Shown: one piece after another, positions 7,762 to 21,454 of the stretch
How the letters are laid out: each line of letters begins with the position of its first letter
Numbering within the stretch: position 1 is the first letter of the stretch
Source of the DNA: Deltaproteobacteria bacterium
Lineage (GTDB): Bacteria > DRYD01
Length of the DNA stretch: 22,692 bases
Direction: 5' to 3'
Assembly: GCA_028276365.1 (NCBI GenBank)
Contig: JAPYWL010000015.1
Coordinates: 1 to 22,692 of the forward strand
Notes under the pieces: generated by a model
What the model was told of the DNA's origin: nothing
The model's input: only the letters and a program-made list of their open reading frames with translations
Databases searched by the model: none
Position numbers and translations under genes: made by a program

Positions 7762-8775
7762 TCAATAAAAGAAAGATTTAGCAAAATTGTATAATTCTTT
7801 ATCAACGGTTTTTATTTTTCCTTCTACTTGAGATAAATCGATTTTAACTATTTCATTGCCTTTAATAGCTAGCATTTTGCCAAATTCTTTATTTTTAACT
7901 AATTCAATAGCTTGATAACCTAATCTTAGAGGGAAAATTCTGTCAATACTATTAGCTGGTCCGCCTCTTTGTAGATGCCCTAAATTAACTGATCTAGTAG
8001 TTATTCCCGTTTCTTTTTCTATTATTTTAGCTAACTGCTCCCCTACTCCTCCTAATTTCATATGCCCATATTCATCAACAACTTCTCTATTAATATTACC
8101 TAATTCAACTCCTTCAGCAACAACTACAATAGCATAAGTTTGACCTCTATTATACCTATCTTTAATAACCTTAACTAAATCACCCAAATCTAAAGGGAAT
8201 TCGGGAATAATAATATAATTAGCTCCTCCTGCTAATCCCCCATAAAGAGCAATCCAACCAGCATGTCTTCCCATAACTTCTAAAACTATTACCCTATGAT
8301 GAGATTTAGCAGTGGATATCAATTTTTCAATAGAATCTCTTACAATATCTACAGCAGTATAAAATCCTACTGTAAAGTCAGTCCCATAAAGATCATAATC
8401 AATAGTTTTAGGTAAACCAATAACAGGGATTCCAGCTTTGAACATTTTAGAAGAAGCTCCCATTGTATCTTCTCCACCTATAGCAATTAATACATTAAAT
8501 CCTGTAGCTTTAAAATTATTAATAGCTTTGTTTATAGTTTCTTCATTTTTAGCAGGATTAGTTCTTGAGCTACCAAGTAAAGTTCCGCCCTGAAAATATT
8601 CTTTTTCAACTAACTCTTTACTAAGCTTTATATATTTATTTTCTAATACACCCTTCCAGCCATCTAAAAAACCATATACTTCATAACCTTCATCAATAGC
8701 TTTAAATGTAATAGCTTTAAGATAAGCATTTAATCCTGGAGCATCTCCTCCTCCTGTTAATACTGATACCTTCAT
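7762..8775 (-). CDS. 6-phosphofructokinase, probably PPi-dependent type
   Basis: This 337-residue cytoplasmic enzyme phosphorylates fructose 6-phosphate to fructose 1,6-bisphosphate. Motifs in order are LTGGGDAPGLNAYL (6-19), GGTLLGSSRTNP (63-74), GGEDTMGAS (100-108), LPKTIDYD (121-128), SHHRVIVLEVMGRHAGW (158-174) and GGP near 270. Two positions decide the phosphoryl donor in this family: an Asp in place of Gly after the GGD/GGE and a Lys in place of Gly before TID both favour pyrophosphate. Both are present here (D103, K123), as in actinobacterial PPi-PFK. The catalytic Asp (D126) is retained, but the usual TIDND reads TIDYD, an unusual change. The start is firm: ATG 8775 follows GAGGAGGT. 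The gene ends with TGA, which shows TGA is a stop here. Confidence 0.93.
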   Translation of the reverse strand: MKVSVLTGGGDAPGLNAYLKAITFKAIDEGYEVYGFLDGWKGVLENKYIKLSKELVEKEYFQGGTLLGSSRTNPAKNEETINKAINNFKATGFNVLIAIGGEDTMGASSKMFKAGIPVIGLPKTIDYDLYGTDFTVGFYTAVDIVRDSIEKLISTAKSHHRVIVLEVMGRHAGWIALYGGLAGGANYIIIPEFPLDLGDLVKVIKDRYNRGQTYAIVVVAEGVELGNINREVVDEYGHMKLGGVGEQLAKIIEKETGITTRSVNLGHLQRGGPANSIDRIFPLRLGYQAIELVKNKEFGKMLAIKGNEIVKIDLSQVEGKIKTVDKELYNFAKSFFY

Positions 8776-14878: not shown

Positions 14879-16315
14879 TTACCTTCTTCTCGAACCTCCT
14901 GTTAAATTATCTAATTCCTCATTATTTCCACCATTTCTATTATTCAAAATATTAGGTGCTGGACTTAGACAACCTACAGTTGTACTTATATTCTGTTCTA
15001 CCAAGTTATAATCTGTTACAGGTATTTCAGTTATACTTACATTATTTAATGTTAAATTAGTTGTACTTATTGTATATGAGGAGTCTAATGCTGTTATATT
15101 TGGATTAGTAACATTGAATACACAATTATTATTATCATTATTATCTATATTAAGATCGCTTGGACCTTTTAATATATATCCAACACTTCCATAATTTATA
15201 AATCTACTAATAATAAATCCCCCATCAGGTAACGGCATCATGTTAAGAACTCCCCATAACTGACTATTACCTCCACCTTTTGCACTCAATTTTACCTGAT
15301 TCATTATACTAAAATCATTCTTATTTATCTTTAATAATATTATATTCATTGGACTTTCATTTGTTGTTATTCCTAATATTATATTCCCATCTAAGGAAAA
15401 ACCTATTTGAGGAAAAATTGATATACTATTCCAATTATATTCCTTAACCATCTCTTGCGTTGGATTACTTAGATTATTTATATCTACTTTTGCTAACACT
15501 AAATTATTAGTATCTTGGTTTTGACCTATATAATATAGTTTATTATTATTATCTACTAAAGCAGCATGGCTCATATCTGTAGAATTATCAAATCTAACTG
15601 CATTATTTAAATTCTTATCTATAACTACTACTCCTTCGTTATTATAATTATCATCATATGTAATTAAGTAATCATTTGATATCGATATAGTTTCGAAGAT
15701 TGAAGAACTTATTCTTTTAGAACTAACAATATTATAATTATTATCAAGCTTTAAAACATATCCTGCATCGCTTACTCCGTATATATTAGTTCAACCGCTA
15801 ATACAGAATAAAACATTAATACTTTGAAAAATCTTTTTTAGAGTAATTTGACCTGTATTTTTATTAACTTCTCCTATTATTCCATGATAATTTGTTCCAT
15901 CAGGGTTTATCCATCCATCTACATAAAATGTACTATTATCTTTATACCATAAATTGCTTAAACCTACATCTGGTAAAGTATTATTGGAACTATCTTTAAC
16001 TTCATAATATTTAGAGTAATTAAGGGTTAAGTTAGGATTTATACTTATTAATGCTAATTTTCTCGTAGTATCTTGTTGCCAGCCAGAAATATAGTATTTA
16101 TAAGTAGTAGGATCAAATAGGATGGAGTTATACCAATCGGTGCCGTTTGTATCTATATGTTTTGCATCATTTACTAAGTTTGGAGTTCCTCCAGAACCTC
16201 CTCCAAAACTACTATTTCCAATTAAATTAGTAAAACTATTATTACATCCATTACAACCTGTCATTATAGATGCTATTATATATGCTATTATTAGATATAA
16301 TATCCATTTTCTCAT
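14879..16315 (-). pseudogene. Beta-propeller-like lipoprotein gene with one in-frame TGA
   Basis: One reading frame of 478 sense-or-TGA codons runs from ATG 16315 to TAA 14879, broken only by TGA at 15791-15793 (codon 175). The N-terminus is a lipoprotein signal peptide: MRKW, a hydrophobic helix, then SIMTGC, so the product would be anchored by Cys at residue 20. The body repeats a short pattern typical of propeller blades: YYISGWQQD, FYVDGWINPD, and at the break FCISG-stop-TNIYG, later LYYIGQNQD. Trp stands exactly where the TGA occurs, so TGG to TGA is the simplest explanation. All 72 codons between the TGA and the next ATG (15574) are open, so loss is recent or the stop is read through. 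AAGGAGGTGAT precedes the ATG by 3 nt. The ligand or role is unknown. As it stands, a 174-residue lipidated fragment would be made. Confidence 0.75.
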
Positions 16316-16318
16316 TTT

Positions 16319-16347
16319 ATCACCTCCTTATTAGATAGATTAATATA
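16319..16347 (-). promoter_or_regulatory. Ribosome site and possible -10 of the lipoprotein gene
   Basis: AAGGAGGTGAT at 16319-16329 is a near-perfect match to the 16S rRNA 3' end. TATATT at 16342-16347 could be the -10; the matching -35 would fall inside the neighbouring poly-T tract. The -10 assignment is tentative; the ribosome site is clear. Confidence 0.5.
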
Positions 16348-16356
16348 GTATTTTAG

Positions 16357-16395
16357 AAAAAAAAAAAAAAAAATCCTGCTCAAAAAAAATTTGAG
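16357..16395 (-). terminator. Hairpin followed by a 17-nt poly-T tract
   Basis: On the minus strand CTCAAA and TTTGAG (loop 5) are followed by CAGGA and then 17 T residues (16357-16373). This could terminate the transcript of the AAA/nuclease copy 1, whose stop is at 16486. The same tract lies where the -35 and spacer of the lipoprotein promoter would be. Confidence 0.5.
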
Positions 16396-16485
16396 TAAAA
16401 TTTTTTAATTTTATTTTAATATTTATAAAAAAAGATTTTAAAACTTTTTTAGGCTTAGATTCCTAAATATTTTTTTATAAAAATT

Positions 16486-18048
16486 TTATTTAACTTGTTG
16501 ATATTCAAAATTAGCAATTTGTTTTTTAGTTTTATCAAGTTCTATTTCAATTATATAAACTTTATCATAATTTAAATATTTTTTATAATATTCTTTTTGT
16601 AAAATTTGATTTATTGAGTTTCTTTTTTCTTTAGAATTTTGAATTACTTTAAATTCAAGGATATAAACGATAGAATTATTAACAATAACAGTTAAATCAA
16701 TTCTACCTTTAGAAATGTTATCTTCTGTTATAACATTTAAACCAGTAGAGTATAACATACTAAATACAGCTATTACATAACTTGACTCTTGCTTAAAATG
16801 TACATAACTTATATTACTTATTAATATTTCAATTTGTTCTTTTAGCTTCTCTATTTCTTGTTTTTTTAATATCTCTATTATATTATCTGCTATATTTTCT
16901 CTTAAATCTTTTGCTAATAAAATAGATAATATATCCTCATTAAAAGATATTCTAACTTCCTTATTTGGGAATCCTAATTTATATTCTTGTCCATACTCCT
17001 TTTGGTATTCCTCTTTTATCGTTAAATAGCCTGTTTGAAACATTAATGCCTCTATTTTGATTTCTTCTATGTCAAACTTTTCTAATATGTTGCTTTTTAC
17101 TATTTTATTTTCTAAATCTGAAACATCATATTCTTTTTTCTTTATTAGTTTTATTAAAAAATTGGGTGTTCCTGTCTTATACCAATAACTATCAAATCTC
17201 TTACTATCTAGATATAACAAGATATCAAAAGGATTATAAAGAGTATCTTGTAGGAAATAGTAACCATTATACCATTCTTTAATTTCATCTAAATTTAGTC
17301 CTTGTAAATAATCATTAAAATACAATTCTAATTCATTTTGAGTATATCCGCAAATATTTCCATATCTTGGATCTAAAGATATATCTTTTAGTTGATTTAA
17401 TCCACTAAAAAGAGAAACCTTTGAAAATTTACTTACCCCTGTTATTAATACAAATCTTATATATTCATCTAATCCTTTTAATACTCCATAAAAATTTTTT
17501 AATGACTCTCTTATTTTCTCTACCTCTGTCTTATTTTCTATATTATCTAATATAACTTTATCATACTCATCTACTAATATCACTACCTTTTCTTTATAAT
17601 AATCATAGCATTTTTTTATTAATAAAAATAGGTTTCCACTTGCTTTATACTTTTTTTCATACTTATATTTACAATTTTTTCCTATTTCTTTTAAAAGTAG
17701 CTCCATTTGAGTTTCAAAATCTTCTTCTTTTCTTATTGCTATTTGGGATAAATCTATTCTTATTACAGGATAAGTTTCATTCCAATTCCATTTATCTTCT
17801 ATAACGAGGGATTTATTCCCGATGTTATATGAATATATATAAAGTCCTTTAAATAATTCTTTCCTACCTTTAAATAAATATCTTATAGTTGAGATTAATA
17901 AGGATTTTCCAAAACGTCTAGGCCTGCTTAGAAAATATTATTTCCTCTGTTTAATTAATTTATATATGTACCGTGTCTTATCAACATATATGTAATTTTC
18001 CTGAATTAACTCCCTAAAATCACTTATTCCTATTGGTAATTTCTTCAT
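16486..18048 (-). pseudogene. AAA-ATPase_like/PD-(D/E)XK nuclease family protein, copy 1, broken by TAA at codon 37
   Basis: The frame from ATG 18048 to TAA 16486 has 520 codons with a single internal TAA at 17938-17940. Paralogues read GKYYFLSRPRRFGKSLL there; this copy reads RK-stop-YFLSRPRRFGKSLL, so a Tyr codon has become TAA. The rest is intact: a Walker-A-like RPRRFGKS, a Walker-B-like VILVDEYDKVILD (Pro to Val relative to the other copies), FVLITGVSKFSKVSLFSG, and at the C-terminus the nuclease core GRIDL...YILEFK...QI. A 12-codon in-frame insertion (17797-17832) is absent from the others. The N-terminal half resembles copy 2 and the C-terminal half copy 3, as after recombination. AGAGGTG precedes the ATG by 8 nt. 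Reinitiation at ATG 17706 would yield a 406-residue product without the P-loop. It lies 65 nt after copy 2. Confidence 0.8.
17797..17832 (-). other. 12-codon in-frame insertion in copy 1
   Basis: Copies 2 and 3 read YIYDKWNW and YIQDKFNW here; copy 1 has twelve extra residues (SYNIGNKSLVIE) between YIY and DKWNW. The frame is kept. It lies between the P-loop and Walker B regions. Confidence 0.7.
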
Positions 18049-18113
18049 TCTTTTTACACCTCTATTTAAAATTTCATAATAATTTTACTATCAATGCTAT
18101 AATAAGATACTAT

Positions 18114-19640
18114 TTATTTAATCTTTCGGTATTCAAAATTAACAATTTGTTTTTTAGTTTTATTAAGTTCTATTCCAATTATATAAATTTTTTGATAATC
18201 TAAATATTTTTTATAATATTCTTTTTCTTCTATTTGTTTTAAAGCTTTTCCTTTTTTTTCTTCTTTTTCTATTACTTTAAATTCTATTATATATACTATA
18301 CTTCTATTTACCAAGATTGTCAAATCAATTCTACCTTTAGAGGTGTTATCTTCTATTATGATATTAAAGCCAGTAGAATATATTAATCCATAAATAGCAG
18401 CTTGATATACATACTCATTTTTAAGTATATTATAACTTATTGAATTAATAAAAATTTCTATTTGCTCCTTTATTTTTTCAATTTCCTCATTTATAATTGC
18501 TATTTTTAAATTATATATTCTATCTGTATGATAGCTTTTGGTTATATAAAATACTAAATCTTTATTAAACGATTGTCTAACTTCTTTATTTGGATAATCT
18601 AACAGATACATCTCCTCTGATTGTATTTGTTTTACCTCTTTAATGGTTAAATAACCAGTTTGAAACATTAGCGCTTCTATGCTTATATACTCTAAATCAA
18701 ATTTATCTAGTATATCACTGGTATAATATAATTTATTTAGATAAGGAAGCTCATAGTTTTTAGTTTTTAAAAGCTTAAATAAGAATTCAGTTTTTCCTGT
18801 TTCATACCAATAATTCTTAAATACTTTATTTTTCAAATATAATAAAATATCAAATGGGTTATAGAGTGTATCTTGTAAGAAATAGTAACCATTATACCAT
18901 TCTTTAATTTCATCTAAATTTAGGTCCTGTAAATAATCTTTAAAGTAAAATTCTATTTCATCTTGAGTATAACCACATATATTGCCAAATTCTTTATTTA
19001 GGGAAATATCTTCTAACTGATTTAATCCGCTAAATAGAGATACTTTTGAAAATTTACTCACTCCTGTTATTAATACAAATTTGATATATTCATCTAATCC
19101 TTTTAAGACGGAATAAAATCCTTTTAATACTTCTCTTATCATTTCTACTCCCTCTTTTTTCTCTATATTATCCAATATCGGCTTATCATATTCGTCTATT
19201 AATATTACTATCTGCTTCTTTCTTTCATCATATATCCTCTTTACTAGTAATTCAAAATTTCTATTTATTGTATATTCTTGATTATATTCATAACCATATA
19301 TTCTCCCAGTTTCTATTATTGTAGCTTTTAATTCCATTTGTAATTCCTTTTCATTTTTTACTTGGGTTTTGGCAAAATCTATTCTTATTACTGGATAAAT
19401 TTCTTCCCAATTCCATTTATCGTAAATATATAACTCCTTAAATAACTTTTTTTTTCCTTCAAAGAGATATCTTATTGTAGAAATCAATAAAGATTTTCCA
19501 AAACGTCTAGGCCTACTTAGAAAATAGTATTTCCCCTGTTTAATTAATTCATATATATACTTTGTCTTATCTACATATATATAATTTCCTTGAATTAATT
19601 CCTTAAAATCGCTTATCCCTATTGGCAATTTCTTCATCAT
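18114..19640 (-). CDS. AAA-ATPase_like/PD-(D/E)XK nuclease family protein, copy 2
   Basis: This intact protein has 508 residues. Residues ~1-290 form the AAA-ATPase_like domain: GISDFKELIQGNYIYVDKT near the start, Walker-A-like RPRRFGKSLL (43-52), Walker-B-like VILIDEYDKP (145-154), and LITGVSKFSKVSLFSGLNQL (190-209). The C-terminus holds the PD-(D/E)XK nuclease core: GRIDL with D439, EFK with E453 and K455, and Q469. The family is common, often in many copies per genome, and its biological role is not established; DNA cleavage linked to nucleotide binding is a reasonable guess only. ATG 19640 is preferred, with AGAGGTG 5 nt upstream. The preceding gap contains the terminator of copy 3 and a 43-nt block also found before copy 3, so it probably has its own start signals. 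It may be cotranscribed with copy 1. Confidence 0.88.
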   Translation of the reverse strand: MMKKLPIGISDFKELIQGNYIYVDKTKYIYELIKQGKYYFLSRPRRFGKSLLISTIRYLFEGKKKLFKELYIYDKWNWEEIYPVIRIDFAKTQVKNEKELQMELKATIIETGRIYGYEYNQEYTINRNFELLVKRIYDERKKQIVILIDEYDKPILDNIEKKEGVEMIREVLKGFYSVLKGLDEYIKFVLITGVSKFSKVSLFSGLNQLEDISLNKEFGNICGYTQDEIEFYFKDYLQDLNLDEIKEWYNGYYFLQDTLYNPFDILLYLKNKVFKNYWYETGKTEFLFKLLKTKNYELPYLNKLYYTSDILDKFDLEYISIEALMFQTGYLTIKEVKQIQSEEMYLLDYPNKEVRQSFNKDLVFYITKSYHTDRIYNLKIAIINEEIEKIKEQIEIFINSISYNILKNEYVYQAAIYGLIYSTGFNIIIEDNTSKGRIDLTILVNRSIVYIIEFKVIEKEEKKGKALKQIEEKEYYKKYLDYQKIYIIGIELNKTKKQIVNFEYRKIK

Positions 19641-19683
19641 TTTAACACCTCTATTTTATCCAAATCTAAGAATAACTTTCTTA
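19641..19683 (-). repeat. Upstream direct repeat, copy A (before AAA/nuclease copy 2)
   Basis: This 43-nt segment next to the start codon matches 21411-21454 with one substitution and one single-base gap, in the same orientation. It contains the ribosome site AGAGGTG. Beyond it the sequences diverge. Confidence 0.85.
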
Positions 19684-19751
19684 ATTTAGTATTATATTTT
19701 TTGTTTTGCTTTCCTATTTCTAAAGAATTTAATATTTAGAATAATTTTAAT

Positions 19752-19785
19752 AAAAAATAAAAAGGGGTAGTTTGAAAACTACCCC
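19752..19785 (-). terminator. Strong intrinsic terminator after AAA/nuclease copy 3
   Basis: GGGGTAGTTT (19764-19773) and AAACTACCCC (19776-19785) form a near-perfect stem with a tiny loop. On the minus strand it is followed by TTTTTATTTTTT. It lies 95 nt past the copy 3 stop and splits the array into two transcription units. Confidence 0.9.
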
Positions 19786-19880
19786 CTATATCTTTTTTCT
19801 TTTTTTTGTTTAATCTACTTCCTACTTATACTTCCATTTTTTAAATCTTCTAAAAATCTATTATTTTTTTTATAAAAATT

Positions 19881-21410
19881 TCATTTAATTTTTTGGTATT
19901 CAAAGTTAGCAACTTGTTTATTAATTTTATCAAGTTCTATCCCAATTATGTAGATTTTATCATAATTTAAATATTTTTTGTAATATTCTTTTTGTAGAAT
20001 TTGGTTTATTGAGTTTCCTTTTTCTTTAGAATTTTGAATTACTTTAAATTCAAGGATATAAACTATGGAATTATTAACAATAATAGTTAAATCAATTCTA
20101 CCTTTTGATGTATTATCTTCTGTTATAACATTTAAGCCAGATGAATAAAATAAAACAAAAACAGCCAATACATAACTTGCTTCTTCTTTAAGGTACATAT
20201 AGCTAATGTTACTTATTAATATTTCCAGTTTTTCTTTTAGTTTTTTTATCTCTTCTTTTTTTAATATTGTTATTATTTCATCTACCAGTTTATATCTTAC
20301 CTCTTCTTTTATTGTAAATTCTAAGATATTTTCACTAAAAGAGATTCTAACTTCTTTATTAGGGAAACCAAGTTTATATTCTTGACCATATTCTTTTTGA
20401 TAAACTTCTTTAATAGTTAAGTAACCCGTTTGAAACATTAGAGCTTCTATTTTAATTTCTTCTATATCAAATTTTTCTAATATGTTTTTCTTAACTATCT
20501 TATTTTCTAATTCTGATACATCATATTTTTTGTTTTTAATAAGTTTAATTAAGAAAGAAGGAGTGCCTGTTTTATACCAATAACTATCAAATTCCCTATT
20601 TCTTAGATATAGCAAAATATCAAATGGGTTATAAAGAGTATCTTGTAAGAAATTATAGCCATTATACCATTCTTTAATTTCATCTAAATTTAGTTTTTCT
20701 AAATAATCTTTAAAATATAATTCTAATTCATTTTGAGTATAACCACAAATATTGCCATAATCTTTATTTAATGAGATATCTTCTAATTGATTTAATCCAC
20801 TAAAAAGAGAGACCTTAGAGAATTTACTTACCCCTGTTATTAAGACAAACCTTATATATTTATCTAAGCCTTTTAGAACAGAATAGAATGCTTTTAGCTG
20901 TTTTCTAATATTTTGAGCTTGTTTGATATCTTCTATTAGATCTAATATTGGCTTATCATATTCATCTACTAATACTACTACTTGTTTTCCATAGCTTTTA
21001 TATATAGTTATTATCAACTTTTCAAATAAGCCTATCTCATCTTCTTCTTTTTCAAACATCTCTATTCCATTATTAATATAGTTCTTTTCCAGTTCTTGTA
21101 TTACCCTTTTTTTATAGTCTTCTTTTTTTAGTATATCTTTGGAAAAATCTATTCTTATTACTGGATAAACCTCTTCCCAATTAAATTTATCTTGTATATA
21201 TAAACCTTTAAATAATTCTTTTTCTCCTTTAAATAGATATTCTACTGTAGAAATTAGTAAAGATTTTCCAAAACGTCTAGGCCTACTTAGAAAGTAATAT
21301 TTCCCACTATTTATTAATTTATAAATATACTCAGTTTTATCCACATATATATAATTACCTTCTATTAATTCTTTGAAATCACTTATTCCTACGCTTAGCT
21401 TCTTCATCAT
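19881..21410 (-). CDS. AAA-ATPase_like/PD-(D/E)XK nuclease family protein, copy 3
   Basis: This intact protein has 509 residues and the same architecture as copy 2: YIYVDKTEYIYKL, Walker-A-like RPRRFGKSLL, Walker-B-like VVLVDEYDKPILD, LITGVSKFSKVSLFSG, and a C-terminal PD-(D/E)XK core (GRIDL, ILEFK, NQILQKEYY). The frame is open up to a TTG at 21434, but the ribosome site AGAGGTG lies inside that extension; ATG 21410 (MMKKLSVG) sits 6 nt after it and aligns with the start of copy 2. The gene ends with TGA directly after FEYQKIK, where copies 1 and 2 have TAA, confirming TGA as a stop. Its C-terminal half is very close to copy 1. It lies 113 nt after the YVTN propeller gene and is followed by a strong terminator. 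Function unproven. Confidence 0.88.
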   Translation of the reverse strand: MMKKLSVGISDFKELIEGNYIYVDKTEYIYKLINSGKYYFLSRPRRFGKSLLISTVEYLFKGEKELFKGLYIQDKFNWEEVYPVIRIDFSKDILKKEDYKKRVIQELEKNYINNGIEMFEKEEDEIGLFEKLIITIYKSYGKQVVVLVDEYDKPILDLIEDIKQAQNIRKQLKAFYSVLKGLDKYIRFVLITGVSKFSKVSLFSGLNQLEDISLNKDYGNICGYTQNELELYFKDYLEKLNLDEIKEWYNGYNFLQDTLYNPFDILLYLRNREFDSYWYKTGTPSFLIKLIKNKKYDVSELENKIVKKNILEKFDIEEIKIEALMFQTGYLTIKEVYQKEYGQEYKLGFPNKEVRISFSENILEFTIKEEVRYKLVDEIITILKKEEIKKLKEKLEILISNISYMYLKEEASYVLAVFVLFYSSGLNVITEDNTSKGRIDLTIIVNNSIVYILEFKVIQNSKEKGNSINQILQKEYYKKYLNYDKIYIIGIELDKINKQVANFEYQKIK

Positions 21411-21454
21411 TTTAAACACCTCTATTTTATTCAAATCTAAGAATAACTTTCTTA
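21411..21454 (-). repeat. Upstream direct repeat, copy B (before AAA/nuclease copy 3)
   Basis: Partner of 19641-19683: 44 nt ending at the start codon, with one substitution and one indel. Copy 1 shares only the innermost part around ACACCTCTATTT. The orientation is direct, so these are not terminal inverted repeats. Confidence 0.85.

Follow-up and report, generated by a model that had tools for sequence, protein, structure and literature searches.

A beta-propeller lipoprotein gene interrupted by a single in-frame TGA: a probable recent nonsense mutation in a decaying multi-copy family of an uncultured bacterium

A lipoprotein gene copy of an uncultured, AT-rich bacterium is probably a paralogue that was recently disrupted by a nonsense mutation, within a multi-copy family that is itself decaying. 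The gene lies on the minus strand (14879..16315) of the window, i.e., the whole stretch of 22,692 nucleotides analysed, which is the entire contig 48 of a draft metagenome assembly of 1.59 Mb (124 contigs, 87% complete, 2.8% contamination). Its frame comprises 478 codons plus a terminal TAA, with one interruption, and encodes a signal peptide, a lipobox-like MTGC, a Gly/Ser linker, and a propeller domain. The sole internal stop is a TGA at codon 175 (15791..15793, minus strand), placed in the hairpin turn of blade 3; reading the gene with the standard code, the predicted translated part (15791..16315, minus strand) would correspond to a truncated lipoprotein of 174 residues ending early in blade 3. 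The original prediction had offered three options for this codon, that is, a recent TGG to TGA mutation, stop readthrough giving short and long surface proteins, or a sequence error; a recent nonsense mutation turned out to be the best supported, while neither its origin from TGG nor readthrough received support.

The single TGA at codon 175 is indeed present in the given sequence, and the frame remains open beyond it for 303 codons, in agreement with the more than 300 that had been claimed. The other five frames of the same segment contain from 10 to 57 stops, and 2000 first-order Markov simulations of it yielded a mean of 31 stops and never fewer than 14, against none in the observed frame. 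The region past the TGA was thus coding until very recently. Neither a second stop nor a frameshift follows the TGA, so that the loss itself must be very recent, and this requirement has to be counted against the nonsense mutation. An ORF starting from a downstream ATG (14879-15574) was also considered as a separate gene translated by reinitiation and was discarded, in that its product would be a partial propeller without a signal peptide.

No Pfam or NCBIfam model matched the lipoprotein. The AlphaFold model has a mean pLDDT of 74 and a pTM of 0.75, with block averages of about 88-95 around codon 175. Foldseek retrieved BamB, designed propellers, and WD40 proteins (best E value 4e-7, 8-15% identity), matches that support the modelled propeller fold rather than membership in any of these three families. 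The MTGC read from the sequence corresponds to TSC or ISC in the homologues, and the signal peptide with its lipobox, together with the repeated stranded blades of the model, points to a beta-propeller lipoprotein.

The original prediction placed the TGA exactly where an internal repeat would require a tryptophan, on the basis of the motifs ISGW (codons 76-79; 16079..16090, minus strand) and VDGW (codons 132-135; 15911..15922, minus strand), followed by ISG-stop in the third blade. The model does not bear this out. ISGW and VDGW are located inside strands 73-81 of blade 1 and 129-137 of blade 2, respectively, each being the second strand of its own blade, after the turn; ISG-stop (codons 172-175) runs from the end of strand 169-173 into the turn that precedes strand 178-182, and codon 175 itself falls in the hairpin turn between these two strands. 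The blade-3 counterpart of the two motifs is IYGVS (codons 178-182; 15770..15784, minus strand), 3' of the TGA. Moreover, the comparison with the corresponding codon in relatives revealed only polar turn residues: across eight homologues, drawn from this genome, its genus, and its family, the column harbors Asn (L012, L014, L013, L015, and L075), Ser (L016), Lys (L017), or Thr (L073), and Trp in none. The conserved local motif of the homologues, LITDN-TNLYGVS, aligns with CISG-stop-TNIYGVS of the window gene. The likeness of ISG to the repeats is a chance match of three residues that occupy another portion of the blade. TGG need not have been the ancestral codon, and the polar residues of the homologues give no indication that it was. 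The "missing tryptophan" was a false lead created by this short motif match.

The source genome, one sister species (G001), and one further species of its family (G002) all harbor full or partial homologues of the lipoprotein. A scan of genome contigs did not retrieve any match with the window protein as query, and retrieved only the sister MAG SRR5214706_bin.133 with a paralogue of the sister species. L016 of the sister species is the positional counterpart of the window gene, with ksgA and a GH57 gene beside it, arranged convergently in the same way; neither L016 nor L012, a closer paralogue, is interrupted across the TGA site, where they encode Ser and Asn, respectively. None of the eight homologues has a stop in the codon-175 column. 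The stop is thus embedded in a frame that is uninterrupted at this site in the homologues, as expected for a nonsense pseudogene. Other members of the family are damaged as well: the same genome contains three decayed pieces (C72:10216-10425, C71:347-448, and C66:5760-5807) and a distant uninterrupted member (C24:1281-2621), and the copy on contig C28 of the sister species is frameshifted. Against L012, the NG86 dN/dS value was about 0.26 before the stop and about 0.63 after it (up to codon 370); against L016, the two values were about 0.39 and 0.86. Synonymous distances were near saturation; the intact pair L012-L016, also near saturation, gave about 0.40 and 0.66, so the 3' part is higher without a stop too.

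Contig breaks fall inside four of the lipoprotein genes, i.e., L013, L015, and L078 (contigs C9, C13, and C22 of G002, respectively) and L012 (contig C9 of G001). Both lipoprotein copies of G002 are cut off where their contigs end, with a matching 3' part situated at the edge of C22; breaks of this kind in the G002 assembly are expected for near-identical duplicates. Two further lipoprotein genes, L003 and L006, share about 80% DNA identity with the window gene over the upstream intergenic region and the signal-peptide part, and then diverge into a different domain (a delta-60 repeat is found in L009, which is the same gene as L003). According to this sequence comparison, the 5' part of the three genes resembles a shared cassette.

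The adjacent upstream gene, which codes for an AAA-ATPase-like/PDDEXK_9 (DUF1703) protein (16486..18048, minus strand), is also interrupted by a stop, a TAA (17938..17940, minus strand) that replaces a Tyr invariant among the intact paralogues, shortly 5' of a Walker A-like GKS. The 1.6 Mb draft genome harbors 29 near-full-length paralogues of this gene (L086-L114) plus fragments, and the window neighbour is the only one of the 29 to be interrupted. In the window, the expansion is seen at 16486-21434. Lipoprotein genes or their remnants repeatedly adjoin an AAA-ATPase-like/PDDEXK_9 gene, both in the window (14879-17706) and on contigs C72, C71, C66, C124, and C24 of the same genome, and on C28 of the sister species. 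The presence of one nonsense codon in each of two neighbouring genes suggests the joint loss of a duplicated unit. In this little-known lineage of bacteria, the lipoprotein family and the large AAA-ATPase/PDDEXK_9 expansion are linked, and the former is undergoing both duplication and breakage.

In principle, we can depict the following course of events for the nonsense mutation. A poorly conserved turn codon would have mutated to TGA, at which RF2 would terminate translation, releasing a 174-residue lipoprotein made up of two full blades and one strand; such a product could not close a propeller. The remaining frame would represent a recent relic still free of further damage, in a multi-copy family whose members tend to adjoin an AAA-ATPase/PDDEXK_9 gene. 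Both the existence of the mutation in the cells and the non-functionality of the truncated lipoprotein are inferred.

The main competing explanation, which we regard as unlikely though deserving serious weight, is an artefact of sequencing, assembly, or strain mixture, in which the TGA reflects an erroneous base or one present in a minority only, most cells having an intact gene. In a fragmented draft with many similar paralogues, the consensus may plausibly be collapsed or chimeric, and the remainder of the lipoprotein frame is clean. However, the Ser-Gly-stop codons differ from those of the homologues at several bases, not at one alone, and the broken neighbour and the remnants elsewhere fit a biological decay; since the neighbouring gene and other family members are broken too, a real decay is likelier than a sequence error. 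Fixation, polymorphism, and error are indistinguishable from one genome of the species.

The other explanations concern the decoding of the TGA, which is a normal stop in the source genome. As the original prediction had pointed out, TGA ends at least two other genes of the window (7762-8775 and 19881-21434), and prfB, encoding RF2, is present with a score above the cut-off. The suppressor tRNA for which a search had been proposed, with a UCA or mutated CCA anticodon, was not recovered: none of the 37 tRNAs of the 87% complete genome has a UCA anticodon, and the one tRNA-Trp has the CCA anticodon and is identical over 75-76 bases to those of three relatives. In E. coli the classic suppressor change of this tRNA is G24A; here, the C11-G24 pair is retained, so the tRNA lacks that change. 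Its anticodon stem, read from the sequence, has five pairs, the topmost being G-U. Searches for SelB and tRNA-Sec both remained below the cut-offs, and neither a SECIS-like nor a readthrough-stimulating hairpin was detected 3' of the UGA, where folding was no better than that of shuffled sequences (z 0.4-0.8). Neither recoding nor a dedicated readthrough signal is supported by these data.

A functional stop readthrough, yielding two surface proteins, one short and one long, appears improbable. In its favor, the frame is open past the TGA, the anticodon stem of the tRNA-Trp is topped by no more than a G-U wobble, and selection has been argued in one survey to maintain some in-frame stops (PMC7918605). 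Background readthrough in bacteria amounts to 0.1-1% (PMC10057733), a level that is usual and needs no special explanation. On the other hand, the stop occurs in no homologue, the downstream structure does not exceed chance, the tRNA-Trp, with its CCA anticodon and paired C11-G24, does not differ from those of the relatives, and the short form in the AlphaFold model would be an unclosed propeller; overall, no positive evidence for a functional readthrough emerged. Even more doubtful is a stop that is real and leaky, in which a few ribosomes would read UGA with the tRNA-Trp by virtue of the G-U pair, yielding mostly truncated and rarely full-length lipoprotein and dialing down family members. 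Recoding of TGA as Trp, Gly, or selenocysteine, for which nothing but the open frame speaks, can be dismissed within the limits of an 87% complete genome, given prfB, the tRNA set, the SelB and tRNA-Sec scores, the genes ending in TGA, and the absence of in-frame TGA from the 28 intact AAA-ATPase-like paralogues.

In the reassignment of UGA to Trp, one mechanism of which is a tRNA-Trp with a 4-bp anticodon stem (PMC13092985), UGA likewise occurs inside reading frames, whereas the source genome of the window has RF2 and a five-pair stem with G-U at its top, and the homologues lack Trp at the site. The readthrough candidates of Belinky et al. 2021 (PMC7918605) resemble the window gene in that a stop interrupts a conserved frame that is otherwise open; their function was argued from stops common to orthologues of at least two species, whereas no homologue has the stop here. 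The same authors find that, for the most part, such in-frame stops survive no longer than polymorphisms within a population do, in keeping with a very young stop in the window gene. The expansion of the neighbouring family resembles that of DUF1703 (AAA-ATPase_like plus PDDEXK_9) in Cardinium cCpun, with 25 copies (PMC6387759) against 29 near-full-length ones here, although the organism is a different one and several of the present copies adjoin lipoprotein genes or remnants. Lastly, as in bacterial nonsense pseudogenes of multi-copy families, one paralogue has a single stop while others are intact or decayed, and the broken neighbour suggests the loss of a unit, as in those families; the window gene differs from them in the unusually limited decay past the stop, which would make it a very young member of this class.
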